A DNA stretch of 64,000 bases from Alphaproteobacteria bacterium (GTDB lineage Bacteria; Pseudomonadota; Alphaproteobacteria; Caulobacterales; Maricaulaceae). A program made the position numbers and the translations under genes. The notes beneath the pieces were generated by a model that worked only from the letters and a program-made list of their open reading frames with translations, was not told where the DNA came from and made no database searches. Below are positions 9,888 through 25,340 of the stretch, in pieces; the first letter of the stretch is position 1; each line of letters begins with the position of its first letter. The DNA is taken from positions 186,001 through 250,000 of the forward strand of contig JANSXV010000002.1 in assembly GCA_024742735.1 (NCBI GenBank), given 5' to 3'.

Positions 9888-10826
9888 TCAGTAAGCCCCG
9901 GACTGCACGCCCTGGCTGAGGCGGCGGCAAATCTCGTCGAGCTGCTCCAGCGTTCCAAACCGGACACGCACTTCGCCGCGCTCGCCGGAGTGGACGATCT
10001 CGACGTCTAGGCCCAGGCGCGCGGCGAGGTCGGCCTCAAGCGCCCGGGTATCCGCGTCCTTCTCCGACCGGGGCGGCTGGGCGCCGCCCTTGCGTTCGCT
10101 CCGGCCGGCAGACTTGCGCGCCAGCGCCTCAGCGGCACGCACTGACAGACCCTTCGCCACGATCTCGTCAACCAGGGCGACCGGATCCGGCGCTGTCGCG
10201 ACCGCCCGGGCATGACCGGCGCTGATCTCTCCAGCCGCAAGCCGGTCCAGAACCCTGCCCGGCAGGGCCAGAAGCCGCAGCGTGTTGGCCACATGGGCGC
10301 GGGACTTACCCAGAGCCCGGGCCACGTCTTCCTGGGTATGACCGAAGGTCTCCACAAGCTGACGCAGGGCCCGCGCCTCTTCCACTGCATTGAGATCGGA
10401 CCGTTGGACGTTCTCGACAATGGCGATTTCCAGGGTCTCACGGTCCGTGAGCTCCCGCACCACGCACGGCGCTTCATGCAGGCGGGCCTTCTGGGCCGCC
10501 CGCCAACGGCGCTCCCCGGCCACGATCTGGTAGCGCTCGGTCGGACCGGGCATTGGCCGGACCAGAAGCGGCTGGATCAGCCCTTTCTCTGCGATCGATT
10601 CGGCGAGCTCGGAAAGCTCAGCGTCGTTGAACGTCTTGCGGGGCTGGTCGGGATTGGGCTCGATCAGTTCGATAGGGATGGTGCGCACGCCGGACAGAGT
10701 GCGCGAGGCGCCGTCCGCCGCGCTCTCCATCTCGCGCGCCGCATCGACGGCTTCTCCTTCGCCCAGAAGGGCCGAAAGGCCCCGGCCGAGACCGCGGCTG
10801 CGCGGCTTGTCGTCTTCCCCGCTCAT
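9888..10826 (-). CDS. parB: Chromosome-partitioning protein ParB
   Basis: ParB (312 aa) is a CTP-dependent DNA clamp that loads at parS and spreads. The N-terminal basic segment (SRGLGRGLSALLG) contacts ParA. The ParB/Srx CTPase domain has IELIEPNPDQPRKTF, the box GLIQPLLVRP and the catalytic/CTP motif AGERRWRAA. Then come the helix-turn-helix (TQEDVARALGKSRAHVANTLRLL) and a C-terminal dimer domain. Three perfect parS palindromes lie 1.4-4 kb upstream in the same operon region. The start overlaps the parA stop by 4 nt. The gene is transcribed away from the predicted origin. Confidence 0.97.
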   Translation of the reverse strand: MSGEDDKPRSRGLGRGLSALLGEGEAVDAAREMESAADGASRTLSGVRTIPIELIEPNPDQPRKTFNDAELSELAESIAEKGLIQPLLVRPMPGPTERYQIVAGERRWRAAQKARLHEAPCVVRELTDRETLEIAIVENVQRSDLNAVEEARALRQLVETFGHTQEDVARALGKSRAHVANTLRLLALPGRVLDRLAAGEISAGHARAVATAPDPVALVDEIVAKGLSVRAAEALARKSAGRSERKGGAQPPRSEKDADTRALEADLAARLGLDVEIVHSGERGEVRVRFGTLEQLDEICRRLSQGVQSGAY

Positions 10827-11659
10827 GCCGGCGCCAGCTCCTGCGAGCCCGAACGCTCCTGACGCACGACTTCACGGGCGAGACCGAGATAGGCCTGCGC
10901 GCCGGCGCACTCCAGGTCATACAGCAGGACCGGCTTGCCGAAGCTCGGCGCCTCGGAGACCCGGACATTGCGCGGTATGACCGTATCATACACCTTGTCG
11001 CCGAAATGCTCGCGCACATCGGCGGCGACCTGGGCCGAAAGATTGTTGCGCTTGTCATACATTGTCAGCACAACACCTTGAATAAAAAGGTTTTTGTTGA
11101 GATTGCCGCGTACCAGATCGATAGTTCGCATGAGCTGGCTCAGACCCTCGAGAGCGAAGAACTCGCACTGCAGCGGCACCATGACAGAGTCCGACGCCGT
11201 CATGGCGTTCACCGTAAGAAGATTGAGCGAAGGCGGGCAGTCGATCAGCACGTAGTCGCAGGTCTGGCCCTTGGCCGACAGAGCCCTGCGGAAGCGATCA
11301 ATGGCGTGGCGCAGGCGATAGGAGCGGCGCGGCGCATTGGAAAGCTCCAGCTCGGCGCCGGAGAGATCCACATCGGACGGGATGATGGACAGGCCGGGCA
11401 CGCTGGTGTCGATCAGCGCCTCCTCCATGGGTCGCTCGCCGACCAGAACGTCATAGCTGGTCGAGCGGCGCTCGGCCCGGCCGACGCCCAGCCCCGTCGA
11501 GGCGTTGCCCTGTGGGTCGAGGTCCAGCACCACGACGCGCTGCCCGATGGCGGCGAGCGCCGTGGCGAGATTGATGGCGGTCGTTGTCTTTCCGACCCCG
11601 CCCTTCTGGTTGGCGATGGCGATCACCTTGGGCGGAGCTGCTCGGGTCTCATCGGTCAC
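10823..11659 (-). CDS. parA: Chromosome-partitioning ATPase ParA
   Basis: ParA/Soj-type ATPase (278 aa) that forms nucleoid-bound gradients and moves ParB-parS complexes. The deviant Walker A motif KGGVGKTTT lies near residue 20, after AIANQ. Switch I/Walker A' follows as DLDPQGNASTGLG, and Walker B as DYVLIDCPPSLNLLT. LQCEFFALEGLSQL and RNVRVSEAPSFGKP are typical of the family. The gene overlaps rsmG upstream by 11 nt and parB downstream by 4 nt, so the three are probably translated from one message. Confidence 0.97.
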   Translation of the reverse strand: MTDETRAAPPKVIAIANQKGGVGKTTTAINLATALAAIGQRVVVLDLDPQGNASTGLGVGRAERRSTSYDVLVGERPMEEALIDTSVPGLSIIPSDVDLSGAELELSNAPRRSYRLRHAIDRFRRALSAKGQTCDYVLIDCPPSLNLLTVNAMTASDSVMVPLQCEFFALEGLSQLMRTIDLVRGNLNKNLFIQGVVLTMYDKRNNLSAQVAADVREHFGDKVYDTVIPRNVRVSEAPSFGKPVLLYDLECAGAQAYLGLAREVVRQERSGSQELAPA

Positions 11660-12293
11660 GGTTCAGAGTCCTGATCTTGAGAATGGCCGCCTCCGGCGCG
11701 GTCGCGCTGGGTATGACCTCAGGGTCAAGGGTCCAGCTTTTCCGCGCCTCGGTCAATTCTTCGCTATGGCGGCCACCCTTGGGAAGCAGCGCGATCGCGC
11801 CCTTTTCCACAAATGGATGGACATAGCCGAGCAATTTCGGGAGCGGCGCCATGGCGCGGGCGGTCACGACATCCACGGCCGGAACATCATCAAGCCGCTC
11901 GACCCGGTCTGAGATCACACTCGCCGGAGCCCCGGTCTCCTGGATCACCCGCCGGAGGAAGGCCGCCTTCTTGGCGATGGACTCCACGAGGATGACATGA
12001 GCTCCAGGAGTCTTGCGATCCATGAGCCCAAAGGCGATCGCAAGACCGGGAAAGCCCGCCCCGGCGCCCAGATCGGCCCAGCGCGCTGCGCCCGGCGCCA
12101 GATCGAGCACCTGCCAGGAATCATAGGCATGGCGGAACCAGAAGTCGGTGAGCGTCGAGCGGCCCACCAGATTGGTGTGGGCGTTCGTCTCTTCCAGACG
12201 CGCGCGCCAGTGCTCGAATCGCTCGAGTGTTTCACGTGAAACACCTGTCCGGGCCTGAAATGCGCCGGCATCGAACTCCGCCTCGCCGCTCAC
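11649..12293 (-). CDS. rsmG: 16S rRNA (guanine-N7) methyltransferase RsmG (GidB)
   Basis: SAM-dependent methyltransferase (214 aa) that makes m7G527 in 16S rRNA. The SAM-binding motif is [16 protein letters not shown]. The N-terminal helix bundle has [23 protein letters not shown], typical of RsmG, and the C-terminal half has [15 protein letters not shown] perfect parS site is embedded near the start and encodes residues 18-22 (VSRET). The gene overlaps mnmG by 4 nt and parA by 11 nt, the classical gidA-gidB-parA-parB arrangement. Confidence 0.95.
12228..12243. promoter_or_regulatory. parS site 1 (in rsmG)
   Basis: Perfect 16-bp palindrome TGTTTCACGTGAAACA, the universal ParB-binding site. 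Flanking bases extend the symmetry to 18 bp (12227-12244). It lies in codons 18-22 of rsmG, about 10.5 kb from the predicted origin. ParB loads here as a CTP clamp. Confidence 0.97.
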
Positions 12294-14182
12294 GCCGTCC
12301 GCCGCTCCCGCTCAAGCCGCTTGAGGTGCGCCAGCAGGGCGGTGAGCGCGCCGGGCGTCACACCTTCGATCCGGGCCGCCTGACCCAGGGTCGCGGGCGA
12401 CGCCGCCTCGAGCTTCTCGCGAACCTCATTGGAAAGCCCGCCAACGCCGGTGTAGTCCATGCCCTTGGGAATCCGCACGCCCTCGTCACGCCGGAAGGCC
12501 ACGATGTCGGCCTCCTGTCGATCCAGATAGCCATGATACACCGAGTCGATCTGGATCTGCTCGGCGACATCGCGCGGCCAGTCCTTGATCTGGGGCCAGA
12601 CACTCGAGACTTCATCCCACCCGATCGCCGGATAGGACAGAAGCTCGATCAGCGAGCGGCGCCGGCCATCCTGATTGACCTTCAGCCCGGCGCGCCGGGC
12701 TTCGGCCGGTGTCAGCTCCAGAGCTCGCGCGGCCTCCCGCGCGGACGCAAGCGCCGTGGACTTTTCGCGCCAGCGTGTTTCACGTGAAACACTTGCTGCG
12801 CCCAGCGCGATCGCCTTGTCGGTCAGGCGCTGATCCGCATTGTCGGCCCGGAGCGTAAGCCGATACTCAGCCCGCGATGTGAACATGCGATAGGGCTCGG
12901 TCACGCCCCGCGTGATCAGATCGTCAATCAGGACGCCGATATAGGCTTCGGACCGGTCAAGAATGAAGGGCGCTGAGCCGGACACAGCCAGCGCAGCATT
13001 CAGCCCCGCCATCAGTCCCTGGGCAGCCGCCTCCTCATAGCCGGTCGTGCCATTGATCTGCCCCGCCAGCCAAAGCCGCGGCAGCGCGCGCACCTCCAGC
13101 GTGGCGCTCAGTTCACGGGGGTCCACATAATCATACTCGATCGCATAGCCATATCGGTGCACCCTGGCCTCTTCCAGACCGGGGATCGTCTTGAGAAACG
13201 CGTCCTGAATCGCCGCCGGCAGCGAGGTGGAGATGCCGTTGGGATAGACCGTGTCATCATCCAGCCCCTCCGGCTCCAGAAAGACCTGGTGGCTGGTGCG
13301 ATCGGCGAAGCGCACCACCTTGTCCTCAATGGACGGGCAATAGCGCGGCCCCCGGCCGGAGATCGCACCGCCATATACGGCGGACTGGTCGATATTGTCG
13401 GCGATGAGCTTGTGGGTGGCCTCGGTCGTCCGCGTGATGCCGCAGCTGATCTGGGGCACGGTGATGCGATCAGACAGAAAGGAAAACGGGACGGGCTCGT
13501 CATCGGCCGCCTGCAGCTCCAGCTCGGACCACCGTATGGTCGAGCCGTCCAGGCGTGCCGGCGTGCCGGTCTTCAGCCGCCCCATACGCAGTCCGAGACC
13601 ATAGAGCCGGTCCGAAAGCCCGATGGCGGGCTGTTCCCCGTGGCGGCCGGCGGGAATACGCTCAGCCCCACGGTGGATCACGCCTTTCAGGAATGTCCCG
13701 GTGGTCAGAACCACCGCACCTGAGCGATAGGCGTGGCCGTGCGCGTCGACAACGCCGGCGCATGCCCCGTTTTCGACAATCAGATCCTCAACCGCCGCCT
13801 CGATGATGGTGAGGTTGGCCGTCTGGCTGAGCTCAGCCTGCATGGCCTCCCGGTAAAGCTTGCGATCAGACTGGGTGCGCGGCCCACGCACAGCCGGACC
13901 CTTCGAGCGATTGAGCAGACGGAACTGGATTCCCGACGCGTCGGCGATACGGCCCATGATCCCGTCGAGCGCATCGACTTCACGCACCAGATGGCCTTTG
14001 CCCAGGCCGCCGATGGCCGGGTTGCAGCTCATCTCGCCGATGGTCGCCGCCTTGTGGGTGAGCAGAAGGGTCTGAGCGCCCGCGCGCGCCGACGCAGCCG
14101 CGGCCTCGCAGCCAGCGTGTCCACCACCGATGATGATGACATCCCAGGTTTGCGCCTGAGCGAATTCAGGGTCGCGCGTCAT
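12290..14182 (-). CDS. mnmG: tRNA uridine-5-carboxymethylaminomethyl modification enzyme MnmG (GidA)
   Basis: FAD enzyme (630 aa) that works with MnmE to modify U34 of tRNAs. The N-terminal FAD-binding motif is [15 protein letters not shown], followed by [26 protein letters not shown]. The middle has [15 protein letters not shown] and YCPSIEDKV. The C-terminus has [14 protein letters not shown] and ends in a helical MnmE-binding region. I chose ATG 14182; the frame is open to TTG 14212 with no support. A perfect parS site sits in codons 465-469. The gene overlaps rsmG by 4 nt; mnmE lies 117 bp upstream. Confidence 0.97.
12776..12791. promoter_or_regulatory. parS site 2 (in mnmG)
   Basis: Perfect TGTTTCACGTGAAACA, again extended to an 18-bp palindrome by its flanks (12775-12792). 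It lies inside mnmG codons 465-469 and is 548 bp from site 1 (start to start). Confidence 0.97.
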
Positions 14183-14299
14183 GCTCACTAGATCCAGGGG
14201 CCGGGTGTTCAAGCGCCGCAGCGACCGTCGCGGGGCGCGGACCCGGCTAGATAAGGCGCCCGGCCCCCGGAGTCGAGGCGCCCGCGCGCGCCACGCCCC

Positions 14300-15628
14300 C
14301 TATTTTCCGATGCAGAACTGGCTGAACACGCGGTCGAGCACGTCCTCGACATCAATCCGGCCGGTCAGACCCTCCAGGGCGCGGAGCGCCAGATGGACCT
14401 CCGCTGCGGCGAGCTCAGGCGCATCGCCGAGGCGGCGCTGCGCGCCCTGAAGATGATCAAGCGCCCGCTCGACCCCGGCCCGGTGCCGCGCCCTCGACAG
14501 GGCCGGCGTCTCGCGCGCCGACAACCGCGCGGTCACGACCGAGGAGAGCCAGGCCTCGAGCGACTCCAGACCCTCCCCGGTCAGCGCCGACACCGCAAAG
14601 GCGTCTATACCGTCAGGCGGGGCTCCCGCCGGCGCGACGAGATCCGCCTTGTTCCAGATGACGGCGTCGCCCGGACGCAGCCTTTCGATTAGCGCCTCTG
14701 CCAGTGTTTCACGTGAAACATCCACGAGCACGAGCCGAAGATCCGCGTCCTCGGCCCGGGCGAGCGCGCGACGAACGCCTTCGGCCTCCACCTGGTCCAC
14801 AGCCTCGCGAAGCCCGGCGGTATCCGCCAGGATCACCGGGAACCCGCCAAGCACCAGGCGCACCTCAACCACGTCGCGCGTGGTCCCAGGAATGTCAGTG
14901 ACGATCGCCGCCTCCCGCCGCGCCAGGCGGTTCAGCAAGGACGACTTGCCCGCGTTCGGCGCGCCGATCAGCGCGATCACAAAGCCCTCACGGACGCGCT
15001 CTCCACGCCGGTCATCATCAAGGTGAGCGGCCAGGGCTTCGGCCAGCGCAGCCAGCGGCGCGCCCGCCGTCTCGCTGAGATGATCGGGGACATCGTCTTC
15101 ATCGGGAAAATCGATCTCGCCCTCCAGCGCGGCGAGCACCGTGATCAGCGCCTCCCGCCAGCCTTCATAGAGCGCCTTGAGCGTTCCGGTCATCTGGGCC
15201 AGCGCCTGGGCGCGCTGGCCTTCCGTCTCGGCGTCGATGAGGTCGGCCAGGCCTTCGGCTTCGGTCAGGTCCATCTTGCCGTTGGCGAAGGCGCGCCGGG
15301 TGAATTCCCCGGCCTCCGCCGGGCGCAGTCCGGCGGCGCTCAACGCGTCCGCCATCGCGGCGATGACCGCGGGTCCGCCATGGACGTGAAACTCGGCGCA
15401 GTCTTCCCCGGTGAAGCTCGCCGGCCCCGGAAACCAGAGCGCCAGACCCTGGTCGATCACCTCGCCGCCACGCGCCCTGAAGCGCCGAAGCACGGCCTGA
15501 CGCGGGGCGGGTCCGGGCGTGCCGGCCAGCGCATCAAGCGCCGTACCGGCGGCTGGCCCGCTGACGCGGATGACGGCCACGCCCGCCCGGCCCGGCCCGC
15601 TGGCCAGTGCGTAAATCGTGTCGGTCAT
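14300..15628 (-). CDS. mnmE: tRNA modification GTPase MnmE (TrmE)
   Basis: GTPase (442 aa) that forms the U34 tRNA-modifying complex with MnmG. The N-terminal formyl-THF-binding domain begins MTDTIYALASGPGRAGVAVI. The G domain lies within a helical domain and has G1 GAPNAGKSS, G2/G3 IPGTTRDVVE and DTAGLR, and G4 NKAD. The C-terminus is the diagnostic CIGK. A parS site occupies codons 304-308, between G3 and G4. This is the first gene of the mnmE-mnmG-rsmG-parA-parB block and is transcribed away from the predicted origin. Confidence 0.97.
   Translation of the reverse strand: MTDTIYALASGPGRAGVAVIRVSGPAAGTALDALAGTPGPAPRQAVLRRFRARGGEVIDQGLALWFPGPASFTGEDCAEFHVHGGPAVIAAMADALSAAGLRPAEAGEFTRRAFANGKMDLTEAEGLADLIDAETEGQRAQALAQMTGTLKALYEGWREALITVLAALEGEIDFPDEDDVPDHLSETAGAPLAALAEALAAHLDDDRRGERVREGFVIALIGAPNAGKSSLLNRLARREAAIVTDIPGTTRDVVEVRLVLGGFPVILADTAGLREAVDQVEAEGVRRALARAEDADLRLVLVDVSRETLAEALIERLRPGDAVIWNKADLVAPAGAPPDGIDAFAVSALTGEGLESLEAWLSSVVTARLSARETPALSRARHRAGVERALDHLQGAQRRLGDAPELAAAEVHLALRALEGLTGRIDVEDVLDRVFSQFCIGK
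14705..14720. promoter_or_regulatory. parS site 3 (in mnmE)
   Basis: Perfect 16-bp TGTTTCACGTGAAACA inside mnmE. Here the flanks do not extend the palindrome. It is the parS closest to the predicted origin, at about 8 kb. Confidence 0.96.
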
Positions 15629-20455: not shown

Positions 20456-21528
20456 GCCGCATCGGCCTCCCGCGCCGTCTCGCTCACCGCTTCATACCCC
20501 GCTTCCAAGCACGGGCAACGCCCGAACTTCGCCGGACACACCGGGGCGCCGGACGGGGGTTTCAGACCGGTCGGTCCTTCAAGAGCCCGGGAGACAAGCT
20601 TGGCGAGCGCCGAGATGAAGTCAGCCTGAGCGCCCAGCGCCGGCACGCGCGTATAGCTTTTGGCGCCGCAGTCCTCGGCGATCTCCAGGTATTCCTCGTC
20701 CAGCTCCACCAGGGTCTCGATATGCTCGGAGACGAAAGCGATCGGGGTCAGAAGAATGTCCCGGCCGTCCTCACAGGCCCGCTCGATGGCTTCATCCGTC
20801 GGCGGTCCGATCCATTTCAGCGGCCCCACGCGGGACTGGTAACAGACCTCGTGTTCTTTCAGGGCGTCAGGCAATATCTCCACGACCCGGGCGACCGTCT
20901 GCTCGACCTGCCACTGATAGCTGTCGCCGCGCTCCACGGTGATCTCCGGCAGCCCGTGGGCGGAGAACAGAACACGGGGATTTGCAGGTTTGCCGGCCGT
21001 CTCCCAGGCCTGTTCGATGAGCCTGGCGTGCGCCTTGATGAAATCGGGTTCCTCAGGATAGCAGCAGATGGTCCGCGCCTCGCCGCCGCCGGCGTCCTTC
21101 CAGGCTTTCAGCGAAGACGCCGTCGTGGTGGTGGAGAACTGAGGATACAGTGGCAGGAGCACGATTTCGTCCGGATCATAGGCCTTAACGGCCTTGACCG
21201 CCTCGGACACGAAAGGATGCCAGTAGCGCATGGCCAGGAAGCACCGCGCCTCGTCACCGGGCAGCAAGCCTTCCAGCGCCTGGGTCAGAGCGGCCGCCTG
21301 CTTTTCGGTTTCCGGCACGATCGGCGAACCGCCGCCCATCTTGGCGTAGTTCGCCGAGGCTTCCTTGGTCCGCGTCGTGGAGATCAGCCAGGCAAGGGAT
21401 TCGCGCACCGGCCAGGGCGCGCTGATGATGGCGGGGTCGCGGAACAGATTACGCAGGAACGGCCGCACCGACTGGAGCTTGTCCGGTCCGCCAAGATTGA
21501 ACAGTACGACCGCTATGCGCCGGCCCAT
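20452..21528 (-). CDS. hemH: Ferrochelatase with C-terminal CX6CXC motif
   Basis: Inserts Fe2+ into protoporphyrin IX (358 aa). Family motifs are VLFNLGGPD, MRYWHPF, LPLYPQFSTTTTASS, LFSAHGLPE (catalytic His) and AFVSEHIETLVELDEEY (catalytic Glu). The C-terminus carries CPAKFGRCPC (Cys331, 338, 340), a CX6CXC motif. The same spacing ligates a [2Fe-2S] cluster in Mycobacterium and Caulobacter ferrochelatases, with a fourth internal cysteine; a CC pair here (TICCYPEEP) could supply it. A further tail of about 18 residues follows. It lies between hemE and hemJ, with a 4-nt overlap with hemJ. Confidence 0.96.
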   Translation of the reverse strand: MGRRIAVVLFNLGGPDKLQSVRPFLRNLFRDPAIISAPWPVRESLAWLISTTRTKEASANYAKMGGGSPIVPETEKQAAALTQALEGLLPGDEARCFLAMRYWHPFVSEAVKAVKAYDPDEIVLLPLYPQFSTTTTASSLKAWKDAGGGEARTICCYPEEPDFIKAHARLIEQAWETAGKPANPRVLFSAHGLPEITVERGDSYQWQVEQTVARVVEILPDALKEHEVCYQSRVGPLKWIGPPTDEAIERACEDGRDILLTPIAFVSEHIETLVELDEEYLEIAEDCGAKSYTRVPALGAQADFISALAKLVSRALEGPTGLKPPSGAPVCPAKFGRCPCLEAGYEAVSETAREADAA

Positions 21529-21556
21529 GGGCGTGCTCCCTTGTTCCGGAGACCGA

Positions 21557-22585
21557 TCAGCCGCGCACGCGTTCGATCAATCGCGTCACGTTCTCGGGCG
21601 GGGTGTCCAGATGAATTCCGTGTCCAAGGTTGAACACATAGGGCCGGTCCGCCCATGCGGAAAGCAGACGGTCGATTTCCAGGTCCAGCGCCGCGCCCCC
21701 GGCATGAAGCACGGCCGGGTCCAGCTGACCTTGCACCGGCAGGGTTTTCGGAAGCGCTGACGCCGCCCACGCAGTGTCCACACCATGGTCGAGCGACAGG
21801 CAGTTCACGCCTGTCTGTTCGGCGTAGCGAACCATCTGCGGACCGGATCCTTTGGGAAAACCGATCACTGGCGCGGTGACGCCGTCGGCTTTGAGACGCT
21901 CCATGATCCGCCGCGTGGGCCGGATCACGACCCGGTCGAACAACGGGTCCGGTAGGCCGTCCGCCCAGGAATCAAAGATTTTCACCACATCAGCGCCGGC
22001 GCGGACCTGATCGGCCAGATAGGCCGCACTGGCGTCAGCGAGAAGATCCATGAGCGCATCGAACTTGTCAGGCTCGGCCCAGGCGAGGGAACGGGCCTTG
22101 AAGCGATCCTTCGATCCTCCGCCCTCGATCATGTAGGTGGCCACGGTCCACGGCGCGCCGCAAAACCCGATGAGAGCCGTCTCTTCCGGCAATCCAGACC
22201 GCAGGATCTTCAACGTCTCCATGACCGGCTGAAGAACCTCCCGGCTGCGCTCGATGCTCAGCGTGTTCAGATCCTCAAGACCGATCGGCTCCAGCTTGGG
22301 TCCTTCGCCCTTTTCAAACCAGACCTTCTGACCCAGGCCATGGGGAATGAGAAGGATGTCGGCGAAGACGATGGACGCATCCAGGCCATAGCGCCGGATC
22401 GGCTGGAAGGTCACTTCCGCGGCGGCCTCGGGATTGAGGCAGAAATTGATGAAATCAGGCTGCTTGGCCCGCACTTCGCGATATTCCGGCAGATAGCGGC
22501 CGGCCTGCCGCATCAGCCATATCGGCGGCGGGGACAGGGTCTGTCCTTCTAGAACGCGCATCAATTTCATTGCGGTGAGGTCCAT
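21557..22585 (-). CDS. hemE: Uroporphyrinogen decarboxylase
   Basis: Decarboxylates uroporphyrinogen III to coproporphyrinogen III (342 aa, usual length). Signatures are PPIWLMRQAGRYLPEYR near the N-terminus, SIVFADILLIPHGLG (catalytic Asp), GFCGAPWTVATYMIEGGGS and HGIHLDTPPENV at the C-terminus. ATG 22585 precedes an in-frame ATG 22570; the longer form fits the family. In Caulobacter hemE borders the replication origin, and its promoters lie within the origin. Here too the gene is transcribed away from the 517-bp candidate origin. Confidence 0.97.
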   Translation of the reverse strand: MDLTAMKLMRVLEGQTLSPPPIWLMRQAGRYLPEYREVRAKQPDFINFCLNPEAAAEVTFQPIRRYGLDASIVFADILLIPHGLGQKVWFEKGEGPKLEPIGLEDLNTLSIERSREVLQPVMETLKILRSGLPEETALIGFCGAPWTVATYMIEGGGSKDRFKARSLAWAEPDKFDALMDLLADASAAYLADQVRAGADVVKIFDSWADGLPDPLFDRVVIRPTRRIMERLKADGVTAPVIGFPKGSGPQMVRYAEQTGVNCLSLDHGVDTAWAASALPKTLPVQGQLDPAVLHAGGAALDLEIDRLLSAWADRPYVFNLGHGIHLDTPPENVTRLIERVRG

Positions 22586-22700
22586 TCCTATCGAGTTCGT
22601 CCCGGGGGGAGAGTCCGGTTTTCCCCGTTTCCCGTCGAGGGGTCTTATCGTTCTTTTTTCCGAAAGGAAAATGGAAGGGATTCAATAGGGGTGCGGGCAG

Positions 22701-22709
22701 CGTGGATAA
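22701..22709 (-). promoter_or_regulatory. DnaA-box-like site
   Basis: Reads TTATCCACG on the minus strand, one mismatch from TTATCCACA. It is the leftmost of four such sites in the candidate origin. Confidence 0.55.
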
Positions 22710-22735
22710 ACGGCCTCCAGGCCCTGCGGCGCCCG

Positions 22736-22744
22736 TTGTCCACA
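22736..22744 (+). promoter_or_regulatory. DnaA-box-like site
   Basis: TTGTCCACA, one mismatch from the consensus. It lies 50 bp left of the AT-rich stretch with the CtrA boxes. Confidence 0.55.
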
Positions 22745-22797
22745 GGGTGTGAGACGAGCTTTTCCAGACGAATGCGGTCAGGGTCTGAATAACGCGA

Positions 22798-22812
22798 TTA
22801 AGGGTTTGTTAA
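22798..22812. promoter_or_regulatory. Perfect CtrA box (TTAA-N7-TTAA)
   Basis: TTAAGGGTTTGTTAA matches the full CtrA consensus with exact 7-bp spacing. In Caulobacter phosphorylated CtrA binds such sites in the origin to block initiation and control hemE. It lies in the AT-rich core of the gap. Confidence 0.85.
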
Positions 22813-22818
22813 TCTGTC

Positions 22819-22833
22819 TAAACAAAGTCTTAA
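22819..22833. promoter_or_regulatory. Second, one-mismatch CtrA box
   Basis: TAAACAAAGTCTTAA: one half-site is exact and the other has a single mismatch, with 7-bp spacing. Its centre is 21 bp (two helical turns) from that of the perfect box, which would place two CtrA dimers on the same face. Confidence 0.6.
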
Positions 22834-22999
22834 TCCTTGGCCGAGATCATGATGACTCGATTCATCGCCTGAGACCGGCTGGGTTCTCGACGGATTGCGG
22901 AAATTCACACCGGCGGCGTCAGCGCGTCGGGCATGGATGTGCGTTGCGCAGGCGCCGATGGACAGATCATCCGAGATGAGCCGGGAGCGCTGCTGTCTG

Positions 23000-23008
23000 C
23001 GTGGACAA
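23000..23008 (-). promoter_or_regulatory. DnaA-box-like site
   Basis: Reads TTGTCCACG on the minus strand, two mismatches from TTATCCACA. It is paired with the consensus site 10 bp to the right in the opposite orientation. Confidence 0.4.
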
Positions 23009-23017
23009 CACGGTGCG

Positions 23018-23026
23018 TTATTCACA
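23018..23026 (+). promoter_or_regulatory. Consensus DnaA box TTATTCACA
   Basis: Exact match to TTATNCACA, 77 bp before the ATG of the DUF299 gene. Confidence 0.75.
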
Positions 23027-23102
23027 GGCGCTCAGCGCTGGTTTACCCATGAAGCGGTTTCGCGCCGGCGTCCGGCGTGTCCGTATCTGAAGAAGGTCCG
23101 CC

Positions 23103-23936
23103 ATGCAGCGCAGCAACGCCGAGATCCATTTCCATGTTCATATGATCTCGGACTCGACCGGCGAGACGCTCATGGAGGTCATGAGGGCCTCTGTGGCTCA
23201 ATTCAACAATGTCGATCCGATCGAGCATCTGTTCGCGCTGGTGCGGTCGCCCAAGCACCTCGAGCGCGCCCTGGCTCATGTGGAGGCTTATCCGGGCATC
23301 GTCATGTATACGCTGGTCAACAGCGACCTGCGGCGGCAGCTGGAGGATTTCTGTGCGCGCCTGGCTGTTCCGGCCATCGCCATTCTGGATCCGATCCAGG
23401 CCACTTTGAGTGCCTATCTCGGCGCGCCGATCATCGGAAAAGCCGGGGCTCAGCGTGTCCTTGACGCTGAGTATTACATGCGGATCGAAGCCATGAACTA
23501 TTCCATGGCCCATGATGACGGCCAGGGTGATGACTGGCCAAGTGCTGACGTCATTCTTCTGGGGATATCACGAACCTCCAAGACGCCCACGAGCGTGTAT
23601 CTCGGCCATCGCGGCATACGGGCTGCAAATATCCCTCTGGTTCCCGGCGCACCTGTGCCGGAGGAGATTTTTGGCCTGGCCAAGCCACTGGTCGTCGGCC
23701 TCACGGCTTCGCCGGAACGCATTATCCAGATCCGCAGGAACCGGCTGTTGAACCTGCGTGAGGATCGTTCGACCGAGTATGTGGACGCGACCTCGGTGAA
23801 AGACGAAGTCGTTTTCGCAAAACGCCTTTATGCCCGCCACAAGATTCCCGTCATCGACGTGACCCGGCGGTCTATCGAAGAGACCGCCGCGAAGGTCATC
23901 AATCTGCTCACTGAACATAAAGCCCGCAAGAAATGA
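23103..23936 (+). CDS. ppsR: Pyruvate, phosphate dikinase regulatory-type protein (DUF299/PPSR)
   Basis: Bifunctional Ser/Thr kinase/phosphorylase family (277 aa) that controls PEP synthase or pyruvate phosphate dikinase. The N-terminus has FHVHMISDSTGETLMEV. The central P-loop is ILLGISRTSKTPTSVYLG, with YYMRIEAMNYSMAHDDG before it. The C-terminus has IPVIDVTRRSIEETAAKV, as in the family. Whether the target is PPDK or PEP synthase cannot be told; neither is in the window. It is the first rightward gene from the predicted origin and begins a run coupled by 4-nt overlaps (maf follows). The Caulobacter gene RP001 occupies this position. Confidence 0.92.
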   Translation: MQRSNAEIHFHVHMISDSTGETLMEVMRASVAQFNNVDPIEHLFALVRSPKHLERALAHVEAYPGIVMYTLVNSDLRRQLEDFCARLAVPAIAILDPIQATLSAYLGAPIIGKAGAQRVLDAEYYMRIEAMNYSMAHDDGQGDDWPSADVILLGISRTSKTPTSVYLGHRGIRAANIPLVPGAPVPEEIFGLAKPLVVGLTASPERIIQIRRNRLLNLREDRSTEYVDATSVKDEVVFAKRLYARHKIPVIDVTRRSIEETAAKVINLLTEHKARKK

Positions 23937-24514
23937 ACTTGATACTCGCTTCCGGCTCCGCTTCTCGCCGGTCCATCCTGCAGAATGCCGGACTTGTCTT
24001 CGAGGTTGACCCCGCCGATGTGGACGAAGGTGCGCTGAAGCACGAGTTTCGCGGTGATGCTGCAGCGCTTGCGCTGCACCTGGCCGAAGCCAAGGCGCTC
24101 GCCGTATCGAACCGGCGCCCGGGCCTCGTTCTCGGCGCTGATCAGGTGCTGGCGTTCGACGGCAAGGTCTTCGACAAGGCTAAATCTGTCGAAGAGGCCG
24201 CCCAGCGTCTCGCTATGCTGCGAGGAGCCACGCACTGGCTCCAGGGCGGCGTGGCGCTGGCTGAAGGCGGCGAGATTGTCTGGCGCCATCAAAGCACCTG
24301 CCGGATGGTCGTTCGCAATTTCTCGGATGAGTTCCTGAAAGACTATGTGGAACAGGCTGGCGACATATTGACCAAGGGGGTCGGCGCCTATGCGTTCGAA
24401 GGTCTGGGCGCCCAACTTTTCGAGCGCGTGGAGGGTGATTATTTCGCGGTTCTGGGTCTGCCTCTTCTGCCGGTGCTGAGTGAACTGCGAGCGCGCGGCG
24501 CCGCGCCATCATGA
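23933..24514 (+). CDS. maf: Maf-like nucleotide pyrophosphatase
   Basis: Protein of 193 aa with the Maf fold. Maf proteins hydrolyse non-canonical or modified nucleoside triphosphates and were first linked to septum inhibition. The N-terminal signature is ILASGSASRRSILQNAG. The conserved acidic block is LVLGADQVLAFDGKVFDKA, and the end has GVGAYAFEGLGAQLFERVEGDYFAVLGLPL. It overlaps the preceding gene by 4 nt (ATGA); aroE follows after 10 bp. Confidence 0.93.
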   Translation: MNLILASGSASRRSILQNAGLVFEVDPADVDEGALKHEFRGDAAALALHLAEAKALAVSNRRPGLVLGADQVLAFDGKVFDKAKSVEEAAQRLAMLRGATHWLQGGVALAEGGEIVWRHQSTCRMVVRNFSDEFLKDYVEQAGDILTKGVGAYAFEGLGAQLFERVEGDYFAVLGLPLLPVLSELRARGAAPS

Positions 24515-24524
24515 GGCCGGCGCC

Positions 24525-25340
24525 GTGAGCCCGCCCTTCGCCGCCGTTGTGGGCTGGCCCGCCGCCCACTCCCTGTCTCCGCTGATGATGGCCACCTGGC
24601 TGAAGGCCGCTGGAATCGAGGGTCGGTACGGGGTGCTGGAGGTCCCGCCTGACCGCTTCGAGCCGCTTGCGGAAAGGCTGGCCGGGCTTGGGCTGGTGGG
24701 CGTCAATGTCACCCTGCCTCACAAGGAAGCCGCCCTCGCCGTAGCCGCTACGGCAAGCGCCACCGCTCAGAGCGTCGGCGCTGCGAACCGGCTGACGGTC
24801 ACGGCGCAGGGCCTCCACGCCCATAACACCGATGTGGACGGTGTCGCTGCCGCCCTGGTTGACGATGCTGGGACCGGGCCGGCCGTTCTGATCGGCGCCG
24901 GCGGCGCGGCGCGGGCCGCGCTTCATCACCTGAAGAGCCAGGAACGCGAGGTGCGTATCGTGAACCGGACGCGCGCCCGGGCCGAGATGATCGCCTCTGA
25001 GTTCGGCGTCGCCGCCGCGATCCACACCGTCCCTGAAGATGCGTTGCCTGGCGCCGCCCTCATCATCAATGCGACGTCACTGGGCATGTCGGGGAAGACC
25101 GCGTTTGCTCCGGACTTCAGCGTCTGTGCGCCGGATGCGCTGGCTTTTGACATGGTCTACACGCCGCTGCGGACGGGTTTTCTGACCGCCGCCGCGCACT
25201 CGGGACTGCGCACCGTTGATGGTCTGTCCATGTTGATCGGCCAGGCCCGGGCGAGCTTCGAGGCCTTTTACAGGGCCGTTCCGGGCCAGGACTCTCTGGT
25301 CCGCCCCGTCCTGGAAGCCCGGCTGGAGGGCCGCTCGTGA
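24525..25340 (+). CDS. aroE: Shikimate dehydrogenase
   Basis: NADPH-dependent reduction of 3-dehydroshikimate in aromatic amino-acid synthesis (271 aa). The substrate-binding motif is [13 protein letters not shown], the catalytic Lys lies in NVTLPHKE and the catalytic Asp in NTDVDG. The nucleotide site is [14 protein letters not shown] followed by VNRTRAR. The C-terminus has [15 protein letters not shown]. The start is GTG 24525, 8 nt after GAGG; an upstream in-frame GTG would overlap maf. The stop overlaps the coaE start by 4 nt. Confidence 0.95.

Follow-up and report, generated by a model that had tools for sequence, protein, structure and literature searches.

A published rule places the chromosomal origin of replication between hemE and a gene of the COG1806 type (stated in the accessible part of PMC1914354). 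At Cori, the origin of Caulobacter crescentus, DnaA bound to its boxes opens an AT-rich core and CtrA keeps DnaA off (accessible part of PMC4468827), and it is from this origin that the analogies drawn below are taken. According to the same review, as far as its accessible part goes, the origin is under CtrA control in some marine species as well, and this control has probably evolved independently (PMC4468827). Here we investigate a stretch of 64,000 bases (the window), bases 186,001–250,000 of contig C19 (577,908 bases) in the draft genome of a Maricaulaceae bacterium, which has 3,226,148 bases in 34 contigs. A sequence-only reading of the window had proposed a likely chromosomal origin in the gap between hemE and a DUF299 gene. 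The neighbouring genes, the cluster of sites, the proximity of parS and conservation across species support this proposal and make it very probable that the gap at 22586–23102 is where the chromosome starts to replicate, an origin of the hemE/COG1806 (Cori) type. The kind of origin is a known one because the rule was already in print (PMC1914354, accessible part).

The gap is bounded exactly by hemE on the minus strand and ppsR, the DUF299 gene, on the plus strand, as had been proposed (Table 1). Position beside hemE or COG1806 is among the criteria of PMC1914354, and the gap adjoins both. By the ppsR protein, the nearest named relatives are Oceanicaulis. Ten matching loci were found in named genomes, from Oceanicaulis (five), a Maricaulaceae bacterium, Glycocaulis, Marinicauda, Alkalicaulis and Maricaulis, with 69–83% identity, and the genome is placed in Maricaulaceae on this basis. 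To the right of ppsR the order maf, aroE, coaE, dnaQ, secB is as the sequence-only reading had it, the profile scores of maf and aroE being slightly below their curated cut-offs; these genes do not all leave to the right, since secB is on the minus strand and faces the gap. Likewise, the statement that most genes are oriented away from the gap holds nearby, over about 10–13 kb on each side (11 of 13 genes to the left, 10 of 11 to the right); counted over the whole window, it weakens to 13 of 24 genes on the left and 27 of 39 on the right. These counts are from mechanical gene picks, plus one Tim44 gene that was added. The gene pair is conserved as well: of 61 genomes, 59 have a ppsR match, the DNA upstream was examined in 58 of these, and in 56, our own included, hemE runs divergently from ppsR (29/30 and 27/28). 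No hemE is present in the stretch taken upstream of ppsR in G046 and G024.

Table 1. Features of the putative origin region and its surroundings, in window positions unless a contig is named.
Feature	Position	Strand	Evidence or remark
parB	9888..10826	-	TIGR00180 over cut-off; ParB_N, HTH_ParB, ParB_C
parA	10823..11659	-	AAA_31, 202.7 bits; ParA-type ATPase
parS core GTTTCACGTGAAAC, within gidB	12229..12242	.	C19:198229-198242
parS core, within gidA	12777..12790	.	C19:198777-198790
parS core, within mnmE	14706..14719	.	C19:200706-200719
hemE, uroporphyrinogen decarboxylase, left boundary	21557..22585	-	TIGR01464, 393.5 bits, over cut-off; PF01208
Origin region (very probable), hemE-ppsR gap	22586..23102	.	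Site cluster, conserved divergent neighbours, parS nearby
DnaA-like box TTATCCACG	22701..22709	-	Block CGTGGA, mean identity 0.90 in 19 rows
GGCGCC palindrome, two bases before DnaA-like box	22728..22733	.	Exact in 13/19 aligned rows
DnaA-like box TTGTCCACA	22736..22744	+	Block TCCACA, 0.89 in 19 rows
AT-rich core, candidate unwinding element (putative role)	22797..22838	.	Under the CtrA sites; 30-base windows up to 77% AT
CtrA site TTAA-N7-TTAA, exact	22798..22812	.	Pattern match, alignment
CtrA-like site TAAA-N7-TTAA, one mismatch	22819..22833	+	Match with one mismatch or none at this place in 15/19 rows
Second GGCGCC palindrome	22951..22956	.	Exact in 7/19 aligned rows
DnaA-like box TTGTCCACG	23000..23008	-	Block GGACAA, 0.80 in 19 rows
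DnaA-like box TTATTCACA	23018..23026	+	Best conserved gap block, TTCACA, 0.98; exact in 17/19
ppsR (DUF299, COG1806 type; Kinase-PPPase), right boundary	23103..23936	+	NF003742, 312.7 bits, over cut-off; PF03618
dnaA	C19:20901-21377		Profile match

The sites that the sequence-only reading had listed within the gap were all recovered. TTRTNCACR occurs four times, only the last copy (23018–23026) fitting the consensus TTATNCACA and none of the four in the gap sequence being TTATCCACA. Both the perfect and the near-perfect CtrA box are present, GANTC is found at 22611, 22679, 22854 and 22859, and there is an AT-rich core, with the richest 30-base window starting at 22805, on the CtrA sites. The criteria of PMC1914354 call for DnaA and CtrA sites together between two genes, as is the case here, and for an AT content above that of the genome; the gap has 42% AT vs 33% for the contig. 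In GC terms this is 57.8% vs 66.8%, with equally low values in 2.2% of contig windows.

Could such a cluster have arisen by chance? The DnaA and CtrA sites are far too clustered for that. When the gap was simulated 5000 times with a first-order Markov model, four DnaA-like sites were never reached and two CtrA sites were reached in 0.24%. Four GANTC sites occur in just 1.5% of contig windows; they are not in excess for the composition of the gap, because 38% of the 5000 simulations reach four. Genome-wide there are 162 copies of TTRTNCACR vs 97 of the control, the same pattern read backwards, and 13 exact CtrA sites vs 8 for the backward pattern. Away from the gap, no 517-base window of contig C19 contains three DnaA-like sites, and none contains two together with a CtrA site that has no more than one mismatch. 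A further criterion of PMC1914354 is that such a set of sites recurs in no other intergenic region of the genome. The set is unique within this contig, which is 18% of the genome; among the first 100 of the 162 genome-wide matches listed there is no other group of three DnaA-like sites within 517 bases. An IHF site is also among the criteria of PMC1914354; the sequence WATCAANNNNTTR, which we take to be the IHF consensus, has no exact copy in the gap. With one mismatch it is found at 22799–22811 (minus strand) and 22820–22832 (plus strand), inside the two CtrA sites. Two or more one-mismatch copies appear in 2.7% of 1000 simulations, and these sites share their TTAA letters with the CtrA sites.

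When 19 close gaps are aligned, the DnaA and CtrA sites rank with the best conserved blocks, the mean identity across all blocks being 0.59. The top blocks are TTCACA at 23021 (0.98), GGGCGC at 22939 (0.91) and CGTGGA at 22701 (0.90), followed by TCCACA at 22739 (0.89), TCCACA at 22887 (0.87), TCTTTT at 22652 (0.85) and TTAACC at 22809 (0.84). The window itself reads GTGCGT at the GGGCGC block and is degenerate at the TCCACA block at 22887. In 18 of the 19 rows the core has a CtrA site with one mismatch or none, where the stretch counted spans most of both sites. Gaps from distant families often contain no strict match to TTRTNCACR; the top enriched word is TCCACA or CACAGG in families f2, f3 and f4, and TCCACA is weakly enriched in f5.

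Three other conserved stretches were observed in the alignment. Near hemE, TTTTCCCC at 22616–22627 resembles the weak W-box TCCCCA of Cori, and CTTAYC-TTCTTT at 22644–22660 may belong to the hemE promoter. At the other end, a stretch like GGTTTA-AC-CAT at 23040–23050 adjoins the last DnaA box and is possibly a further CtrA half-site.

The partition locus is close to the gap. The exact 14-base parS core occurs three times in the genome, all within C19:198,229–200,719 (window 12,229–14,719), and the control pattern does not occur at all. The three cores are 8–11 kb to the left of the gap, among parAB-gidBA-mnmE, the gidB profile score being slightly below its curated cut-off. An exact parS 16-mer is present in 49 of 61 genomes, our own included. 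Distances between parS and ppsR were taken in 29 relatives and our own genome, from 32 relatives among the matches listed; G033, with no ppsR match, and G059 and G005, with parS and ppsR on different contigs, were left out. In these 30 genomes the median distance from ppsR to the nearest listed parS is 8.0 kb, and all listed copies are at most 20 kb from ppsR in 29, the exception being G047 at 51–53 kb. The side on which parS is found varies, being that of hemE in 22 of the 30 and that of ppsR in eight, while the distance is kept, as if small inversions round the origin had swapped the sides.

As the sequence-only reading had noted, dnaA is outside the window: the single dnaA is 188 kb to the left of the gap. 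A second dnaA profile match, on contig C20, is below the cut-off and is perhaps an Hda-like protein. The distance between dnaA and ppsR ranges from 22 to 660 kb in the 29 genomes, our own included, that have both on one contig (499 kb in G056, outside that set), and the absence of dnaA from the window is therefore no evidence against an origin. In this group dnaA is unlinked to the origin. The genome also encodes CtrA (C23:124,113; 428 bits, cut-off 350), GcrA and a CcrM-like protein with a RAMA domain (PF18755).

GC skew was computed on contig C19 and on four closed relatives, in 20 stretches each (400,000 bases; 398,000 for G028). A minimum of the whole-genome cumulative skew at the gap had been named as a check, and on the contig the outcome is mixed. 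The raw minimum is at C19:208,334, 252 bases to the left of the gap, and one of 2000 block shuffles brought it to 1 kb or less from the gap. The detrended minimum is 110 kb away at C19:319,206; a trough as deep appeared in none of 2000 block shuffles, but it is at 319,206 that this trough is found. The skew of our own genome is nearly flat, at -0.006 to the left and +0.005 to the right. In the relatives, skew is greater to the right of the gap than to the left (one-sided) in G010 (P 0.009), G011 (P 0.0004) and G036 (P 0.00009), with no significant difference across the gap in G028 (P 0.24). In a scan by GC, the best switch point agrees with the gap to within the grid of 20 kb in G011 and G036, and is off by 19–59 kb in G010 and 132 kb in G028. 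The motif GGGNAGGG does not switch in C19 (16/25 to the left of the gap, 37/35 to the right). Between the two sides of the gap it differs in G010, G011 and G036; in G028 the difference is not significant (P 0.065). It locates the switch less precisely than GC does: its best score is reached at the gap and also across a stretch past it in G010 and G036, and its best switch is 80–140 kb off in G011 and about 270–330 kb off in G028. A search for skewed 7- and 8-mers in C19 gave nothing clear. Skew supports the origin weakly, without proving it in our own genome.

Is the gap then an origin, or merely a shared control region of hemE and ppsR on which CtrA and DnaA act as transcription factors, with replication starting elsewhere? 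In C. crescentus both proteins do regulate genes as well (accessible part of PMC4468827), and the detrended skew minimum would offer a start at about 319 kb of the contig, just as dnaA would offer another. A plain control region sits poorly with a site cluster that no other window of C19 has, and a start elsewhere with a parS cluster that adjoins the gap, with a dnaA that is far off and at widely variable distances in relatives, and with the skew switches of G011 and G036, which are closest to the gap. We regard this explanation as highly improbable. The gap might also encode a short RNA regulator similar to CcnA of C. crescentus, which would add to the origin reading without replacing it; the stretch 21000–25000 has no Rfam match at the gathering threshold, and we think such an RNA rather unlikely.

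The anatomy of the gap, its uniqueness at the level of the contig, its conservation, the gene order, the nearby parS and the regulator genes are what the analysis shows. If the gap is the origin, it may work much as Cori does. By this analogy, DnaA-ATP would assemble on the boxes on both sides of the AT-rich core, open the core and load the helicase from which two forks set out. In non-replicating cells DnaA would be kept off by phosphorylated CtrA bound to the two sites over the core, and methylation of GANTC by a CcrM-type enzyme may mark replicated DNA. The parS cluster would be copied soon after firing and its copies then moved apart by ParAB. Several independent lines short of experiment place the origin of a Maricaulaceae chromosome here. 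From genome to genome parS remains near the gap, even as it switches sides and as dnaA shifts position. The aligned gaps of relatives would also allow a closer look at the independent gain of CtrA control that is reported for marine species.

The gaps may have a further component, the palindrome GGCGCC. This side observation covers the hemE-ppsR gaps of loci L004–L033, L039, L043 and L153–L180. In 31 gaps there are 66 copies vs 11.3 expected from a Markov model, about sixfold, which makes it the seventh most enriched 6-mer, and it is present in 21 of the 31. The excess in our own gap is modest (2 vs 1.05 at the contig rate). The 83 copies scored in 58 gaps are concentrated at 0.2–0.3 (26 copies) and 0.6–0.8 (35 copies) of the gap length. 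By family, it is present in 17/22 close f1 gaps, 3/14 other f1, 1/6 f2, 5/5 f3, 0/5 f4 and 3/6 f5, and the gaps of G028 and G036 lack it. No longer consensus was found round the copies. Is this simply an effect of high GC? The count exceeds the Markov expectation, yet GGCGCC is frequent in coding DNA too (27 copies in equal lengths of ppsR), and it stays a lead. Within a limited literature search we know of no report of it as an origin element, the sole match concerning Streptomyces. We suggest tentatively, as a minority possibility, that GGCGCC is an unrecognised origin element in Maricaulaceae and at least one related family, flanking the CtrA-bound core, often just before a DnaA box, and that it might be the site of an unnamed origin-binding or DNA-modifying protein helping to set initiation. 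It is a concrete thing to test.

How does this gap compare with known origins? The origins of marine Caulobacter species, reportedly studied by Shaheen in 2009, are probably the nearest studied ones and are described in PMC4468827. The one-mismatch IHF-like sites over both CtrA sites recall the dual IHF/CtrA site of Cori that Siam is said to have described in 2003, a likeness that is weak because of the shared TTAA letters. The gap here also has the two GGCGCC palindromes. The origin of Rickettsia prowazekii has the same boundary gene pair and differs in being 384 bp long with 82.6% AT, vs 517 bp and 42% AT here (PMC1914354, accessible part). Cori is 404 bp (PMC1914354, accessible part) vs 517 here, and the accessible text counts five CtrA sites in it, along with five weak W-boxes and two G-boxes TGATCCACA, whereas this gap has no TGATCCACA, two CtrA sites and four TTRTNCACR boxes. 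In other respects the two are alike: hemE and COG1806 are the boundary genes of both (PMC1914354, accessible part), CtrA and DnaA sites occur together, AT is higher than in the genome, and parS is about 8 kb from Cori in C. crescentus (PMC6399470, accessible part) and 8–11 kb from the gap here.
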